In this document: positions 1,366 to 6,081 of the stretch, one piece after another
Numbering within the stretch: position 1 is the stretch's first letter
Layout: every line of letters begins with the position of its first letter
Position numbers and translations under genes: made by a program
The notes under the pieces: model-generated
Databases searched by the model: none
The model's input: the letters and a program-made list of their open reading frames with translations, nothing else
Told to the model about the DNA's origin: nothing
Origin: Rhodocytophaga rosea
GTDB lineage: Bacteria; Bacteroidota; Bacteroidia; Cytophagales; 172606-1
Reading direction: 5' to 3'
Length of the DNA stretch: 64,000 nt
Assembly: GCF_010119975.1 (NCBI RefSeq)
Contig: NZ_CP048222.1
Coordinates: 3,924,501 to 3,988,500 of the forward strand

Positions 1366-2661
1366 CTATATATGCAAACCGCATTCAGTTTTAGCCTGGC
1401 CAAACCAACGGCCTTCCCTCCCAGTGCCTTTTACCGTGCAATGTGTACATCCGATTGATCCATATCCTTCAAAAACCAGTGGATGAAAATGCAAGTCATG
1501 TGTGAGGATGTACATATCTCTTTCTTCAGGCGTAATGTCGAGGATCGGATAGAACTTGAGAATGCCATTTTTCTCTTCAAAAAGGCGTAAGCCTTTGCGG
1601 TGTTCATTCTGGGTATGTATCAGGCCGGAAACCCACACCTGGTAATTTCCTGATATAGCATCTAATGGTTCTGTTTTATTCACTTTGCAGCATAAATCCG
1701 GATCTTTCGTCCACATATTATACTCCGAAGTAAACCTGTGTTTCCAAACCTCTGCTTTCAGATCAATTACATTCAGGTTATACATCTGAGTAAGCTTTTC
1801 CTTATAAGCCAGTGTTTCCGGAAAATGATAACCTGTATCTATAAAATGTACTTTCTGTTTGCTTCCAGTCAGGCGGGCAAATAAATGCAGTAATAAAGCG
1901 GAATTGCCAGCAAAAGAAGAAGTTAGCAATACATCTTCCGGCCCAAAATCTTTGTAGAGTTCCAGAATTCTTTCATCAATAGTCAGCTTTTCATACCGTT
2001 CATTCAACTCTTCTATATCATACGGTTTCCGTTCAGCTTTTTTCTCGGCAGAGGGAGTAATTTTTATAGCTTGTGGAACAAAAGAAGCAGTAAGCTCATT
2101 GAGCTGGTTCACTTTTTCGGCAAAATCGCCTTTGATTCCATTACGAATTGCCTGCATATTATTGAGAACTTCCTGAGTAGATTCCGGTAACGCTTCCTCA
2201 AAATACTGACGCATTCGTTTGGCTAGTGTCGGAGATTTGCCATTGGTAGAGATAGCAATTTTCAGATCGCCTTTCTTCACAATAGAACCGAGGTAAAAAT
2301 CACACAAATCGGGGGTATCAGCAATATTGGCCAATACTTTATGTGCCTTAGCCTGTCTTTTTATAATTTCATGCAATGAACGGTCCGTGGTTGCAGCGAT
2401 CACAATGTCTTTGTCTTCCAGGTCTTCTTCCTGGTAAGGGCGTTCTTCGAGGATAATATTCTCGTATTCGCTCACTAAGGCTCTTATATCATCAGAGATG
2501 GAAATCCCTACTAATGTTATCTGGGTAGACGGGTTGTTTTTGAGAATAGCACTCAGTTTTTCCAAGCCAATCATTCCTCCACCTACAATGAGTACCCGGA
2601 GTTCATTCAGTTTGAGAAATACCGGAAAAAGTAGATTTCCTTCTGTTTCAGTTTGTACCAT
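1366..2661 (-). CDS. Fusion: siroheme synthase (Met8/CysG-N) + APS/PAPS reductase (CysH)
   Basis: Residues 1-200 are a precorrin-2 dehydrogenase/ferrochelatase domain: the NAD-binding GGGMIG is at 27-32, with ADTPDLCDFYLGS and STNGKSPTLAKRMR after it. Residues about 210-431 are a sulfonucleotide reductase. The Cys324-Cys325 pair and Cys405-x-x-Cys408 are the four expected [4Fe-4S] ligands, and Cys427 in ECGLH is the catalytic cysteine. The cluster cysteines mark the APS-reductase type, although many bacterial enzymes of this type are annotated CysH. One polypeptide would therefore join the making of sulfite with the making of the siroheme needed to reduce it. It is the third gene of the sulfite reductase operon, 190 bases after cobA. 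The ATG at 2661 is followed directly by family sequence. The fusion itself is unusual. Confidence 0.9.
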   Translation of the reverse strand: MVQTETEGNLLFPVFLKLNELRVLIVGGGMIGLEKLSAILKNNPSTQITLVGISISDDIRALVSEYENIILEERPYQEEDLEDKDIVIAATTDRSLHEIIKRQAKAHKVLANIADTPDLCDFYLGSIVKKGDLKIAISTNGKSPTLAKRMRQYFEEALPESTQEVLNNMQAIRNGIKGDFAEKVNQLNELTASFVPQAIKITPSAEKKAERKPYDIEELNERYEKLTIDERILELYKDFGPEDVLLTSSFAGNSALLLHLFARLTGSKQKVHFIDTGYHFPETLAYKEKLTQMYNLNVIDLKAEVWKHRFTSEYNMWTKDPDLCCKVNKTEPLDAISGNYQVWVSGLIHTQNEHRKGLRLFEEKNGILKFYPILDITPEERDMYILTHDLHFHPLVFEGYGSIGCTHCTVKGTGREGRWFGQAKTECGLHI

Positions 2662-2810: not shown

Positions 2811-2840
2811 TGGTTGAACACGTACAGACATGTTCAACCA
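2811..2840. repeat. Perfect 10-bp hairpin between cobA and the Met8-CysH gene
   Basis: TGGTTGAACA and TGTTCAACCA form perfect arms around a 10-base loop, starting 12 bases beyond the cobA stop. In the operon direction no run of T follows, so it is not a standard terminator. It may be an mRNA-stabilising or processing hairpin that sets the ratio of the upstream and downstream genes. Confidence 0.5.
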
Positions 2841-2851
2841 ATTTTAATTAT

Positions 2852-3634
2852 TTAGTTTTGACAGACATTTTGGATATCTGATTCGGTGATGCGTTGCAGT
2901 ACAAATTCCGGGTGTTCTCTTACTACTTCGCCCAATACAATAACTGCCGGAGAAGCGATCTTTTGTTCATTTACAAGGTCTACAATAGTTTCTACAGTTC
3001 CTAGTACAAATCTTTCTTCAGGTAAAGAACCATTTTGAATAACTGCTACCGGTAACTGATTTCTGCCATATTGCGCATAGATAGCAGCTATTTCCCTGAG
3101 TTTGTGAAGGCCCATTAAAATAATAGCCGTTGCCTGAGATTGAGCAGCCAGTTTGATGTCGGTGGAAACTTCTCCCTTTTGGGTGGTTCCGGTAAGTACC
3201 CAGAAGCTTTCACTGATCCCCCGGCTCGTAAGCGGAATGCGTTGCAATTCTGGTACGGCAATGGAACTTGAAATACCTGGAATAACCGAAGTAGGTATAT
3301 TATAAGACTCTATATAGGTGATTTCTTCATGCCCTCTTCCGAAAACAAACGAATCGCCTCCTTTTAAGCGCACTACATGGCCATATGCAAAAGCTGCATC
3401 AACAATCAATTTATTTATATCTTCTTGTGCCATTTCATGCTTAGCAGCCCGTTTACCTACAAAAATAGTTGGTACTTCATCAGCTACGTGTTCCAGTAGT
3501 TCTTTATTTACCAGCGCATCATATAATACTACATCTGCTTCCCACAGTGCTTTTAAACCTTTAACAGTTATTAGACTGGCATCGCCAGGACCTGCGCCCA
3601 CCAATGTTACTTTAGGATATACTAATTTTTGCAT
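2852..3634 (-). CDS. cobA: Uroporphyrinogen-III C-methyltransferase
   Basis: This SUMT enzyme uses two S-adenosylmethionines to convert uroporphyrinogen III to precorrin-2, the entry step to siroheme. Family motifs in order are VGAGPGDASLITVKG near the N-terminus, GGDSFVFGRGHEE near residue 95, PGISSSIAVP, and the C-terminal PAVIVLGEVV. At 260 residues it is the normal single-domain length. Its start lies 23 bases inside the end of the sulfite reductase gene, which suggests translational coupling. The NAD-dependent and ferrochelatase steps that follow are supplied by the Met8 half of the next gene. No cobalamin-ring genes are nearby, so the product is most likely used for siroheme. Confidence 0.93.
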   Translation of the reverse strand: MQKLVYPKVTLVGAGPGDASLITVKGLKALWEADVVLYDALVNKELLEHVADEVPTIFVGKRAAKHEMAQEDINKLIVDAAFAYGHVVRLKGGDSFVFGRGHEEITYIESYNIPTSVIPGISSSIAVPELQRIPLTSRGISESFWVLTGTTQKGEVSTDIKLAAQSQATAIILMGLHKLREIAAIYAQYGRNQLPVAVIQNGSLPEERFVLGTVETIVDLVNEQKIASPAVIVLGEVVREHPEFVLQRITESDIQNVCQN

Positions 3635-5732
3635 TTTCTTGTAATTCTTGTCTAGTGGTAGAAACTAATTGATGAAAAGCGATGGCATCCTGCAGATAGG
3701 CACTTGCAAATGCTTCGCTTGGTTCATTGGAATTGATCTGATGGACTAAGGTTTTAAAATCTGTAGGCAGATTAATCAGCCCGGTTTGCACTACATGCTT
3801 ATCAAAATCATTGATAATGCCATGCTGGGTATTACAGCTGATATCCTGAGATAAAAGAAAGCTTTTTGCTGTACTGATCAAACCAGTATAAGTATGATAA
3901 ATAGAATCTGCATAAGCTTTTTCTGCCAACGCTTCCGATGCCCAGATCAATTTTTCTTCTGCTTCATAGAGCAGGGTAGCGATCAGATCGATGATTACGC
4001 TGGCACATTCTCCTACCCCAATAGCGGTTTCGTATTTTTTATCTTCGCCCCAGTCGATAAAGTCAGATTCAACCAGTCTTTCGGTATTAGCCAATGGTTT
4101 GAGCAACTGATAAAAATAATCTTTGCCTTTTCTCTGGTAATAATTATTGAAATATTCGCCTTCCTGTGCCTTTTCCTGGTAATCGTTCAGAAGGTAGCGC
4201 AATACATCCAGACCTCTTTTGCTGGGAACTTTAATTACTTTGTCAGCTACAATGCCTACGCCATTGCCTTCGGTGCCTCCGCCTAGCATTACTTGTAAGG
4301 CTGGCAATACATTAGGCCCTTTTTTGATAGAGCTGCCATGGAAACCGATATTGGCTATGCTATGCTGCCCACAGCCATTCATACAGCCGCTTATCTTTAT
4401 TTTTATATCTGTATTATAAATCAGGTCAGGATATTCGGCTGCAATCATTTTTTCCAGTTCATGGGCAATTCCGGTACTGCTGGAAATACCCAGGTTACAG
4501 GTATCGGTTCCCGGACAAGCTGTTACATCGAGAGTACTATCAAATCCTGGATCACCCAAACCGATTTCGTTCAGAGCAGCATATACAGCTGGTAAGGCTT
4601 CCAGGCGGATAAACTTGAGCATCAATCCCTGGTTAATCGTTACCCGGATATCATCGGCTGCATAGGCTTTTACAATCGGTGCCAGTTTACGGGCCGTATC
4701 TGAAGCCAGATCGCCAAGCAAAACTTTAATCTGAACCGCATAGAACCCTTTCTGTTTTTGCTCAAACACATTGGTTTTGAGCCAGGATTCGTAACGGGCA
4801 GTATCGGTGATTTCTACTGCAGGAATTTCCTTGTTTTCTGGTAATTCAGCTTCCGGTAAACTATTGCGGTCTATCCAGTATTCTTTGGATTTCAATGCTT
4901 TGCGTTCCTGTTCTACTAGTTCCACAAAACTCTCCAGCCCGATTTCTTCCAGTAAAAATTTCAACCTGGCTTTGTGCCGGCGGTTGCGCTCGCCATAGCG
5001 GTCGAAGATACGGAGCACCCCTTCGGTAAACGGAATTACATATTGTTCTTCCAGGAATTCATGCACCGGTAAAGCTAAATAAGGTTGTGCACCTAATCCG
5101 CCGGCAATTACTACTTTGAATCCTCTTACTTCCTTTCCATCTATAGTTTTTACCTGTGGAATAAAGCCCAAATCATGAATATAACTGAAAGAATCATCGG
5201 CCTGGCTGGAAGAAAAAGCAATTTTGAATTTCCGCCCCATGTCCTGGCAAATGGGATTCCGTAACAAATAACGGAATAACTCATAGGCATATGGAGATAC
5301 ATCGAAAGGTTCCTGAGGATCGATGCCTGCTTTATGGCTGGCAGTAATGTTCCGAACCGTATTCCCACAAGCTTCTCTGGTCGTGATATTATCCTCCGAT
5401 AATTTAGCCCACAGTTCAGGCGTTCTATTCAGGCTTACAAAGTGAATCTGAATATCTTGCCGGGTAGTCAGGTGCAGGTTACGGGTAGCATACTCATCAG
5501 AAATATCAGCAATCCGCAGTAGTTGTTTAACTGTAATCCGGCCAAACGGAACTTTAATCCGGATCATTTGCACACCGGGCTGCCTTTGTCCATAAATACC
5601 TCTTACCAGGCGAAGGCTGCGGAATTTATCAGGATGAATCACGCCTTCCTGAAATAGCCTGATCTGCTTCTCCAAAGCGACAATATCTTTGGCAACTACC
5701 GGATTTTCAAGTTCTGTTCTGAAACTTTGCAT
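3612..5732 (-). CDS. Siroheme [4Fe-4S] sulfite (or nitrite) reductase with C-terminal HEPN-like domain
   Basis: Residues 1 to about 565 form a ferredoxin-type sulfite/nitrite reductase: two ferredoxin-like half-domains (LVRGIYGQRQPGVQMIRI, NLHLTTRQDIQIHFV) and the siroheme/4Fe-4S ligands Cys406, Cys412, Cys450 and Cys454 (CPGTDTC...SGCMNGC). Linkage to cysH and cobA favours sulfite over nitrite as substrate. Residues about 565-695 are an extra helical domain whose YADSIYHTYTGLISTAKSF and IINDFDKHVVQTGLI resemble HEPN domains. I place the start at the ATG at 5732. The in-frame TTG at 5765 lies in the T-tract of the preceding attenuator terminator and would add 11 residues. Transcription should be controlled by the tandem cysteine leaders upstream. 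Confidence 0.9.
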   Translation of the reverse strand: MQSFRTELENPVVAKDIVALEKQIRLFQEGVIHPDKFRSLRLVRGIYGQRQPGVQMIRIKVPFGRITVKQLLRIADISDEYATRNLHLTTRQDIQIHFVSLNRTPELWAKLSEDNITTREACGNTVRNITASHKAGIDPQEPFDVSPYAYELFRYLLRNPICQDMGRKFKIAFSSSQADDSFSYIHDLGFIPQVKTIDGKEVRGFKVVIAGGLGAQPYLALPVHEFLEEQYVIPFTEGVLRIFDRYGERNRRHKARLKFLLEEIGLESFVELVEQERKALKSKEYWIDRNSLPEAELPENKEIPAVEITDTARYESWLKTNVFEQKQKGFYAVQIKVLLGDLASDTARKLAPIVKAYAADDIRVTINQGLMLKFIRLEALPAVYAALNEIGLGDPGFDSTLDVTACPGTDTCNLGISSSTGIAHELEKMIAAEYPDLIYNTDIKIKISGCMNGCGQHSIANIGFHGSSIKKGPNVLPALQVMLGGGTEGNGVGIVADKVIKVPSKRGLDVLRYLLNDYQEKAQEGEYFNNYYQRKGKDYFYQLLKPLANTERLVESDFIDWGEDKKYETAIGVGECASVIIDLIATLLYEAEEKLIWASEALAEKAYADSIYHTYTGLISTAKSFLLSQDISCNTQHGIINDFDKHVVQTGLINLPTDFKTLVHQINSNEPSEAFASAYLQDAIAFHQLVSTTRQELQENAKISIS

Positions 5733-5754: not shown

Positions 5755-5790
5755 TGTAAAAACAAAAGCCTCTCCTACTAAGGAAAGGCT
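5755..5790 (-). terminator. Terminator hairpin of attenuator 2
   Basis: On the minus strand AGCCTTTCC (5790-5782), a six-base loop, and GGAGAGGCT (5775-5767) form a 9-bp stem with one G-U pair, followed by TTTGTTTTT. It lies directly before the sulfite reductase gene and would stop transcription unless the 5' arm is captured by the upstream antiterminator arm at 5844-5836. Confidence 0.8.
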
Positions 5791-5822
5791 CTTTCTAAGG
5801 TATGTTGGTTGAAGTTTAAACA

Positions 5823-5906
5823 TTAACCCATACAAAGCCTCTCCATTGTTGAGTAGCAACAACAACAGGTAGTATCACAGCAAGTAGTATGGATATGTTT
5901 CATCAT
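5823..5906 (-). CDS. Cys-rich leader peptide 2 (27 aa)
   Basis: An ATG-initiated 27-codon frame contains TTCCDTTCCCC: cysteines at 9, 10, 14, 15, 16 and 17, plus one at 25. Seven Cys codons in 27, six of them clustered, is what a leader that senses Cys-tRNA charging should look like. It sits between attenuator hairpins and upstream of a cysteine-biosynthesis operon. The antiterminator arm A' overlaps codons 21-24 (Met-Glu-Arg-Leu). A second ATG follows the first, so the peptide may be 26 residues. Confidence 0.8.
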   Translation of the reverse strand: MMKHIHTTCCDTTCCCCYSTMERLCMG

Positions 5907-5919
5907 CTGGATTGTTTTA

Positions 5920-5953
5920 TAAAATAAAAAGCCTTTCCTGTGTTGGAGAGGCT
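5920..5953 (-). terminator. Terminator hairpin of attenuator 1
   Basis: On the minus strand AGCCTCTCC (5953-5945), loop AACACA, and GGAAAGGCT (5938-5930) form a 9-bp stem with one C-A mismatch, followed by TTTTTATTTTAT. It lies between leader peptide 1 and leader peptide 2. Confidence 0.75.
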
Positions 5954-6003
5954 TCTATCATCTGCTTATTAATATTTTGAATGATCACAAAAGCCTTTCC
6001 TGC

Positions 6004-6081
6004 TTAACAGCAACAGCAAGCACAGCAGCACTTGGTCATTTGTACGAAGCAGAAAGTAATAGAGTTGGTTTTGTATATCAT
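6004..6081 (-). CDS. Cys-rich leader peptide 1 (11 or 25 aa)
   Basis: The frame ends in MTKCCCACCCC followed by TAA, giving seven cysteines in the last eight residues. It can start at the ATG at 6039 (11 residues) or at the in-frame ATG at 6081 (25 residues, with one more Cys). No protein domain is possible at this size. The cysteine run, the immediately following attenuator arms and the downstream sulfur-assimilation operon together indicate a leader that senses charged Cys-tRNA. Confidence 0.8.
   Translation of the reverse strand: MIYKTNSITFCFVQMTKCCCACCCC

Follow-up and report, generated by a model that had tools for sequence, protein, structure and literature searches.

Tandem cysteine leader-peptide attenuators predicted before the sulfite reductase operon of Rhodocytophaga rosea, and related leaders in Bacteroidota

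In attenuation of the trp/his/ilv type (Yanofsky), many codons of the leader ORF specify the amino acid that the pathway makes, and antiterminator and terminator structures are mutually exclusive. The Rhodocytophaga rosea locus described here has the same elements, namely a product-codon leader ORF, an exclusive antiterminator/terminator pair and an intrinsic terminator before the structural genes; it departs from that type in its Cys codons, in the three arms described, in its two complete units in series and in its Bacteroidota host. The leader ORFs of Salmonella mgtCBR answer other signals. They belong to tandem attenuators in which two short ORFs in the leader control operon transcription (extract of PMC3641672); the Rhodocytophaga leader likewise holds two short ORFs that would control operon transcription, and is unlike mgtCBR in that both units carry runs of one codon and repeat one three-arm plan.

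Cysteine leaders are known from other phyla. In Rhodobacterales, uORFC-8-2 precedes cysS and carries tandem Cys codons followed by an intrinsic terminator, and ribosome-mediated attenuation was proposed for it (extract of PMC8632094). The Rhodocytophaga leaders share tandem Cys codons and a following intrinsic terminator with this alpha-proteobacterial case, whereas two conserved Cys codons lie inside the first stem of uORFC-8-2 and the gene controlled here would be a sulfite reductase in Cytophagales; the extract mentions no second unit, in contrast to the tandem units in Rhodocytophaga. Actinobacterial and mycobacterial Cys leaders are described as having no conserved terminators, and translational or Rho-based attenuation was proposed for them (Seliverstov 2005, extract of PMC1262725); polycysteine leaderless sORFs are reported in mycobacteria (Canestrari 2020, as cited in an extract of PMC13236596). 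Rhodocytophaga resembles the mycobacterial cys-operon leaders in having Cys-codon runs before cysteine-pathway genes, with leaderless initiation likely in several of its relatives, and differs from them in having terminators with antiterminator arms. Within Bacteroidota, leader-peptide attenuation has been reported at amino-acid operons of Flavobacterium psychrophilum (extract of PMC9723704), and sORFs reminiscent of leader peptides in Bacteroides thetaiotaomicron (extract of PMC7366714). The initial annotation of this DNA knew of no described example in the phylum. For cysteine this agrees with the top results of full-text literature searches, among which no Bacteroidota attenuator was listed (the 2010 comparative survey of Lopatovskaya et al., cited in PMC4833913, might contain related cases); the F. 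psychrophilum report on amino-acid operons qualifies it.

Two leader units before the sulfite reductase operon

We analyzed a 64,000-nt stretch, hereafter the window, of the single-contig, 8.98-Mb genome of Rhodocytophaga, a genus of the Cytophagales family Rhodocytophagaceae. The window's minus strand carries, in order, a putative recF-like gene (named from an SMC_N match), dciA, a leader region (6081-5757) and the sulfite reductase operon. Two predicted leader-peptide attenuators lie in series in the leader region, unit 1 at 6081-5921 and unit 2 at 5906-5757. The features are as follows.

6004..6081, minus strand: leader ORF 1; long form MIYKTNSITFCFVQMTKCCCACCCC from ATG 6081, short form MTKCCCACCCC from 6039
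5987..6001, minus strand: arm A1, the antiterminator 5' arm; AGGAAAGGCTTTTGT, beginning 2 nt past the stop codon
5945..5955, minus strand: arm B1, common to antiterminator 1 and terminator 1; GAAGCCTCTCC
5921..5938, minus strand: arm C1 and T-run, forming intrinsic terminator 1; GGAAAGGCTTT, hairpin 5955-5928
5823..5906, minus strand: leader ORF 2; MMKHIHTTCCDTTCCCCYSTMERLCMG
5833..5845, minus strand: arm A2, within leader ORF 2 and 3' of the CCCC run; TGGAGAGGCTTTG
5757..5793, minus strand: intrinsic terminator 2, made of arms B2 and C2 and a T-run; hairpin 5793-5764
3612..5732, minus strand: operon gene 1, siroheme/4Fe-4S sulfite (nitrite) reductase, 706 aa counted from ATG
2852..3634, minus strand: operon gene 2, uroporphyrinogen-III C-methyltransferase (CobA), TIGR01469 above cut-off
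1366..2661, minus strand: operon gene 3, fusion of a CysG-N/Met8-like siroheme-synthase N-terminal domain with PAPS reductase (CysH); PF13241, PF14824 and PF01507, with NF002537 above cut-off

Leader 1 in its short form (6039-6004) reads ATG ACC AAG TGC TGC TGT GCT TGC TGT TGC TGT TAA, with Cys in seven of the eight final codons directly 5' of TAA; a start at ATG 6081 or at ATG 6039 would fit the frame, and the sequence does not decide between them. The stop is followed by three bases (GCA), then GGAAAGGCTTTT (6000-5989), AGCCTCTCC (5953-5945), GGAAAGGC (5938-5931) and the T-run TTTTTATTTT (5930-5921). The initial annotation had described this arrangement of MTKCCCACCCC-stop, an arm within three bases, two further arms and a T-run, and all of it is present letter for letter. 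It had also proposed that the middle arm pairs with either flank, which folding bears out: the A1/B1 duplex reaches -14.7 kcal/mol (as good in 0 of 100 shuffled spacers), and terminator 1 folds at -13.6 kcal/mol (z -4.1, 0 of 200 shuffles as good), while the best fold of the 90-nt stretch of unit 1 joins the first arm with the second (z = -2.5, 5 of 200 shuffles as good). Imitating the ribosome in a script by a mask at the first Cys codons left free RNA that folded as the antiterminator (-23.9 kcal/mol for the stretch), and a mask at the stop codon gave the terminator (-15.3); these predicted folds agree with the claimed switch by ribosome position in unit 1. Unit 1 is complete, and the annotated stretch, 5920-6081, covers only the first of two units.

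Leader 2 carries a Cys run of the form ...CCDTTCCCC..., followed by TMERLCMG. The A2/B2 duplex reaches -18.1 kcal/mol, with 0 of 100 shuffled spacers as good when the spacer begins where the densest Cys stretch ends. This definition replaced a first one that took the ORF's last Cys as its origin, began behind arm A2 and so missed it (p 0.54). Terminator 2 lies ~30 nt 5' of the sulfite reductase ATG and folds at -19.3 kcal/mol (z -4.6), a value that none of 200 shuffles matched. A ribosome mask at the unit 2 stop codon yielded the terminator, at -19.3; with the ribosome stalled and arm C2 already made, the minimum-energy fold was the terminator and a longer segment folded as the antiterminator. 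Since the stalled fold varies with the segment given, the outcome would have to rest on the A:B helix being in place by the time arm C is transcribed. Cross-pairing of A1 with B2 and of A2 with B1 is also conceivable.

The ORF lister places the start of the sulfite reductase at TTG 5765; we used the ATG. Its product matches Pfam NIR_SIR (9e-44) and NIR_SIR_ferr, and every listed NCBIfam model scores under its cut-off, so the assignment as a sulfite rather than a nitrite reductase is made from context. With that assignment, the operon comprises siroheme and sulfur-assimilation genes, in keeping with the cysteine-pathway operon claimed initially. Inspection by eye of the 190 nt that separate cobA from the CysG-N/CysH fusion showed no third attenuator unit; this gap holds, 3' of cobA, the inverted repeat TGGTTGAACA/TGTTCAACCA (window 2811-2840). 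A second sulfite-reductase-like gene occurs in the same genome (7378524-7379954, plus strand, L005/L007; open frame 568 aa) and is 28-30% identical to the window's over matched parts. An Rfam scan of the 64-kb window gave one match above its gathering score, a tRNA elsewhere in the window, and no SAM, T-box or other cis-regulatory family at the locus; the SAM-I riboswitch (RF00162) had no match in the window.

Taking leader ORFs, arms and terminators together, we consider it very probable that two ribosome-mediated transcription attenuators in series gate the sulfite-assimilation operon according to how much charged cysteinyl-tRNA is available. With Cys-tRNA plentiful, the ribosome would reach the leader stop codon and its footprint would mask arm A, leaving arm B to pair with arm C and RNA polymerase to terminate; with Cys-tRNA short, the ribosome would stall in the Cys run, arm A would be free, A:B would pair and transcription would proceed. 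Because the polymerase would face one test twice, the leak-through of the two units should multiply, giving a wider dynamic range. Leader translation, stalling, transcription starting at a promoter 5' of unit 1 and the physiological response are inferred from the sequence.

Occurrence of such units was also assessed in this genome. A simple terminator scan found 2 candidates in the region against 1.9 expected, namely terminator 2 and one inside dciA, and missed terminator 1; a simple promoter scan showed no excess (9 against 8.1 expected). The 9.0-Mb genome has 65 TGYx4 matches, and we checked the 60 loci that cover all of them for sORFs of at most 50 aa with CCCC. Judged by inspection, the window's two leaders alone combined such an sORF with a convincing terminator. 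Of three other loci that the automatic hairpin filter let through, L298 and L310 fall within longer ORFs of a different frame, and L272 was set aside on its weak T-run alone. No unit was found within 1500 nt upstream of L279 and L280, the cysteine-gene candidates with the genome's other strong PF01507 matches, and an NCBIfam search with eight leader peptides gave no match up to E 10. Two polyCys sORFs ending CCCCCC or CRCCCC, with no intrinsic terminator called, were noted elsewhere in the genome (L315 at 544311, minus strand; L314 at 8674277, plus strand), before a SusC-like TonB receptor and a 212-aa peroxiredoxin-like protein, both putative names read from sequence.

Recurrence, arm pairing and tandem layout in Bacteroidota

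Sequences upstream of sulfite reductase genes were drawn from 81 of 143 order-level genomes with a match, 79 of 85 class-level genomes outside the order and the best 80 of 581 relatives; dropping two public-relative loci with <300 nt upstream reduced 239 to 237. We searched 620 nt of each for sORFs with an ATG start and >=3 Cys in 8 residues. The start of the aligned protein lay a few codons 5' of the true ATG at no fewer than 10 loci. Leaders with only two Cys codons, as in Chitinophaga, fall under this threshold and outside the counts. Some species were sampled twice and leaders of related species are not independent, so the p-values given below for Met, arms and boxes are overstated.

A Cys sORF occurred in 70 of the 237 upstreams, together with an intrinsic terminator in 59, and as two units in 15. 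The opposite strand of the same sequences gave 15, 4 and 0, respectively, and five dinucleotide shuffles 7-12, 0-5 and 0. Upstreams of 225 other genes in the public-relative loci, under a somewhat stricter filter that removed sORFs overlapping long ORFs, gave 11 Cys sORFs, 3 of them with a terminator (one before a cobA-like gene). Six loci (L043, L038, L052, L231, L233 and L157) were judged false for a misplaced hairpin, the want of a clean T-run or a chance-looking sORF; their removal leaves 53 loci, 14 of them tandem, and L118 and L148 look like one species, which makes 13 distinct tandem loci. The six remain inside the counts of 59/237, 15 tandem, 41/69 arm pairings and -7 boxes, and were left out of the Met and own-partner arm analyses. 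Leader ORFs, arms and terminators are present in the sequence, and both the units and their tandem form recur above chance.

With the six false loci removed, at least one unit was found in 17 of the 33 family groups sampled, and conservation of the layout is patchy. No unit was found in 178 of the 237 upstreams, among them every one of the 39 sampled in the two largest family groups (f10, 0/21; f19, 0/18), and no accepted unit in f15 (0/11), f74 (0/9) or f33 (0/8). The window's own family has a unit in 4 of 8 upstreams and none in L012-L015, where L012 holds 10 N and the matches of L013 and L014 begin 60-70 residues into the protein, so that less upstream was covered. A lack of conservation of the Cys run or of the arms, which the initial annotation had named as a refutation, is not what these genomes showed; half of the own-family upstreams gave no unit. 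Two further cases were noted in other settings. In L045 (1695-1968) a putative cysH-like gene upstream of sulfite reductase is preceded by two Cys leaders in tandem, both of which have a terminator. L041 (703-795) has a Cys leader ending GCCCCKY, with no terminator called; the genes after it are, in order, a putative homoserine-dehydrogenase-like one, a putative 2-oxoacid:ferredoxin-oxidoreductase-like pair and sulfite reductase.

Arm sequences vary between lineages and pair within elements. Pairing of arms A and B was significant against shuffled spacers (p<=0.05) in 41 of 69 distinct units, with ~3.5 expected, and no better than shuffles (p 0.05) in the other 28. The nearest relative, R. aerolata (L040), gave p=1.00; as we read it, what was called as the terminator there is the A:B helix itself. 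Offered the arm B sequences of all elements, arm A favored that of its own unit, which ranked in the best tenth in 30 of 63 cases (KS p about 7e-12, overstated as above); three near-duplicates were also left out of this comparison. Covariation, the other check suggested at the outset for the three-arm element, was found for the terminator and not for the antiterminator: in an alignment of 23 sequences (22 from Pedobacter or Mucilaginibacter, one from an unclassified MAG), 5 of the 7 base pairs predicted for the terminator have compensatory changes on both sides, and the terminator was the only helix in the consensus fold, from which the antiterminator, mutually exclusive with it, is absent.

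Among the 13 distinct tandem loci, nine (the window, L118, L131, L146, L153, L160, L163, L173 and L187) place arm A of unit 1 0-5 nt past the stop codon and arm A of unit 2 20-43 nt before the ORF end; L017, L127, L129 and L133 depart from this placement. Arm pairing was not significant in two of the nine (L118 unit 2, p 0.06; L131 unit 1, p 0.23).

Promoters, SAM-I riboswitches and methionine codons

Of the 59 first or only units, 42 have a sigma-A -7 box (TAnnTTTG or TAnnTTGY) at most 60 nt upstream, against 11.6% in shuffles; none of the 15 second units has one. A single promoter therefore most likely serves both units. In the window, the 134 nt that separate dciA from leader 1 contain no such box; read-through from the same-strand upstream recF-like and dciA genes is possible. 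In 10 of the 59 (0.2% in shuffles) the box begins at exactly -12 relative to the leader ATG, namely in L059, L060, L078, L084, L087, L089, L093, L135, L140 and L178, six of the ten being Pedobacter or Mucilaginibacter. The -7 box of F. psychrophilum stands at -12 to -5 relative to the start site (extract of PMC9723704); with this spacing the transcript start would be the leader ATG itself, which makes leaderless leader transcripts likely in several relatives, as judged from box position.

Scanning of 15 sources placed a SAM-I riboswitch (RF00162, 60.6-68.3 bits) directly 5' of a polyCys leader in six (L018, L020, L022, L042, L043 and L046), with gaps of 6 nt in L046 and 8 nt in L042 and L043. 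This series of riboswitch and Cys leader is an architecture separate from the window's. A terminator was called for the polyCys leader in L042 alone among the six, and arm pairing there was at chance level (p 0.92). Sulfite reductase lies downstream of these leaders; the site in L046 spans 4525-4630, and the leader of L018 has 10 consecutive Cys.

Methionine is enriched in the leaders. Of the 599 non-Cys residues around the Cys cluster in 63 units, 138 are Met, compared with 1.4% in Cys-rich ORFs of shuffled DNA. After the first Cys of the cluster, start codon excluded, it accounts for 67 of 264 residues vs 47 of 2105 (Fisher p about 1.5e-37, overstated since leaders are related) and occurs in 38 of 63 leaders. 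The window's own Cys runs are free of Met, so dual Cys/Met reading would concern the wider set. A core R-C-[AE]-C-W-[FHY]-W-C-C is common to L026/L028, L027, L033, L077 and L243, with a shorter form in L052 (R-A-C-W-F-W-C-C); these leaders are more alike than Cys counting would need, and a nascent-chain effect is possible.

Alternative readings and implications

The Cys runs might instead serve translational or Rho-dependent cysteine attenuation as in mycobacteria, stalling ribosomes to control downstream translation or Rho access, with the hairpins incidental. Such control would suit the actinobacterial Cys leaders without conserved terminators (extract of PMC1262725) and the six SAM-I/polyCys loci, where the one terminator called, in L042, comes with a pairing p of 0.92; yet both window hairpins are strong, each is followed by a T-run and each has an arm in common with an upstream complement, and a Cys sORF with terminator was counted 59 times in the 237 real upstreams and 0-5 times in shuffled ones. 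We regard this explanation as unlikely. Chance TGY runs beside ordinary terminators are a highly implausible account. The 65 TGYx4 matches in the genome and the simple terminator scan without excess speak for it, but among the 60 TGYx4 loci the window alone joins a run to convincing terminators, two complete units stand in one leader, and the excess over controls in the phylum, the arm-pairing test and the other-gene control already contradict it.

It is likewise very unlikely that the leaders are working Cys/Met-rich micropeptides, for instance metal- or persulfide-binding, with the terminators as ordinary gene ends. Met and Cys together (MCMCMCMCCC in L190) could bind soft metals, and the RC[AE]CW[FHY]WCC core is conserved in several loci; against this, arm A often lies inside the ORF, tying codons to the hairpin, and 11 related leader pairs (one from loci judged false) change at all codon positions, with 56, 47 and 39 nucleotide changes at positions 3, 1 and 2 over the whole leader. 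Their Cys codons were the same in 40 cases and changed synonymously in 5 and nonsynonymously in 5. Change at all positions with Cys codons mostly kept would be expected of a leader more than of a working peptide; because the Cys codons are mostly identical in these pairs, codon-level conservation is weak proof of coding.

The window's system is most likely a variant of ribosome-mediated attenuation; the initial observation is right, and the mechanism proposed for it is most likely right. In the literature found, we have not seen described the tandem design, the wide use before Bacteroidota sulfite reductases, or the Met, leaderless and SAM-riboswitch variants. A broader proposal, which we advance tentatively and hold at slightly short of an even chance, is that Bacteroidota widely control sulfite reduction by a sulfur-amino-acid attenuator whose leaders would read Cys and Met codons together. 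It would often be duplicated with a division of labor (arm A after the stop in unit 1 and inside the ORF in unit 2), would be leaderless in Pedobacter and Mucilaginibacter, and would lie behind a SAM-I riboswitch in Pontibacter-like relatives, so that SAM and Cys (elsewhere Met) would be read on one leader.

A recurring cis-element of this kind would predict which Bacteroidota operons answer to cysteine, and it could be studied in the easily grown genera Pedobacter, Mucilaginibacter and Chitinophaga. Repeated duplication of the complete attenuator lets one ask what two serial termination tests buy, and the Met enrichment poses the question of whether one leader may report two amino acids. Flavobacteria are described as having no Shine-Dalgarno sequences (extract of PMC9723704), and leaderless leaders would bear on ribosome-polymerase coupling in bacteria without them.
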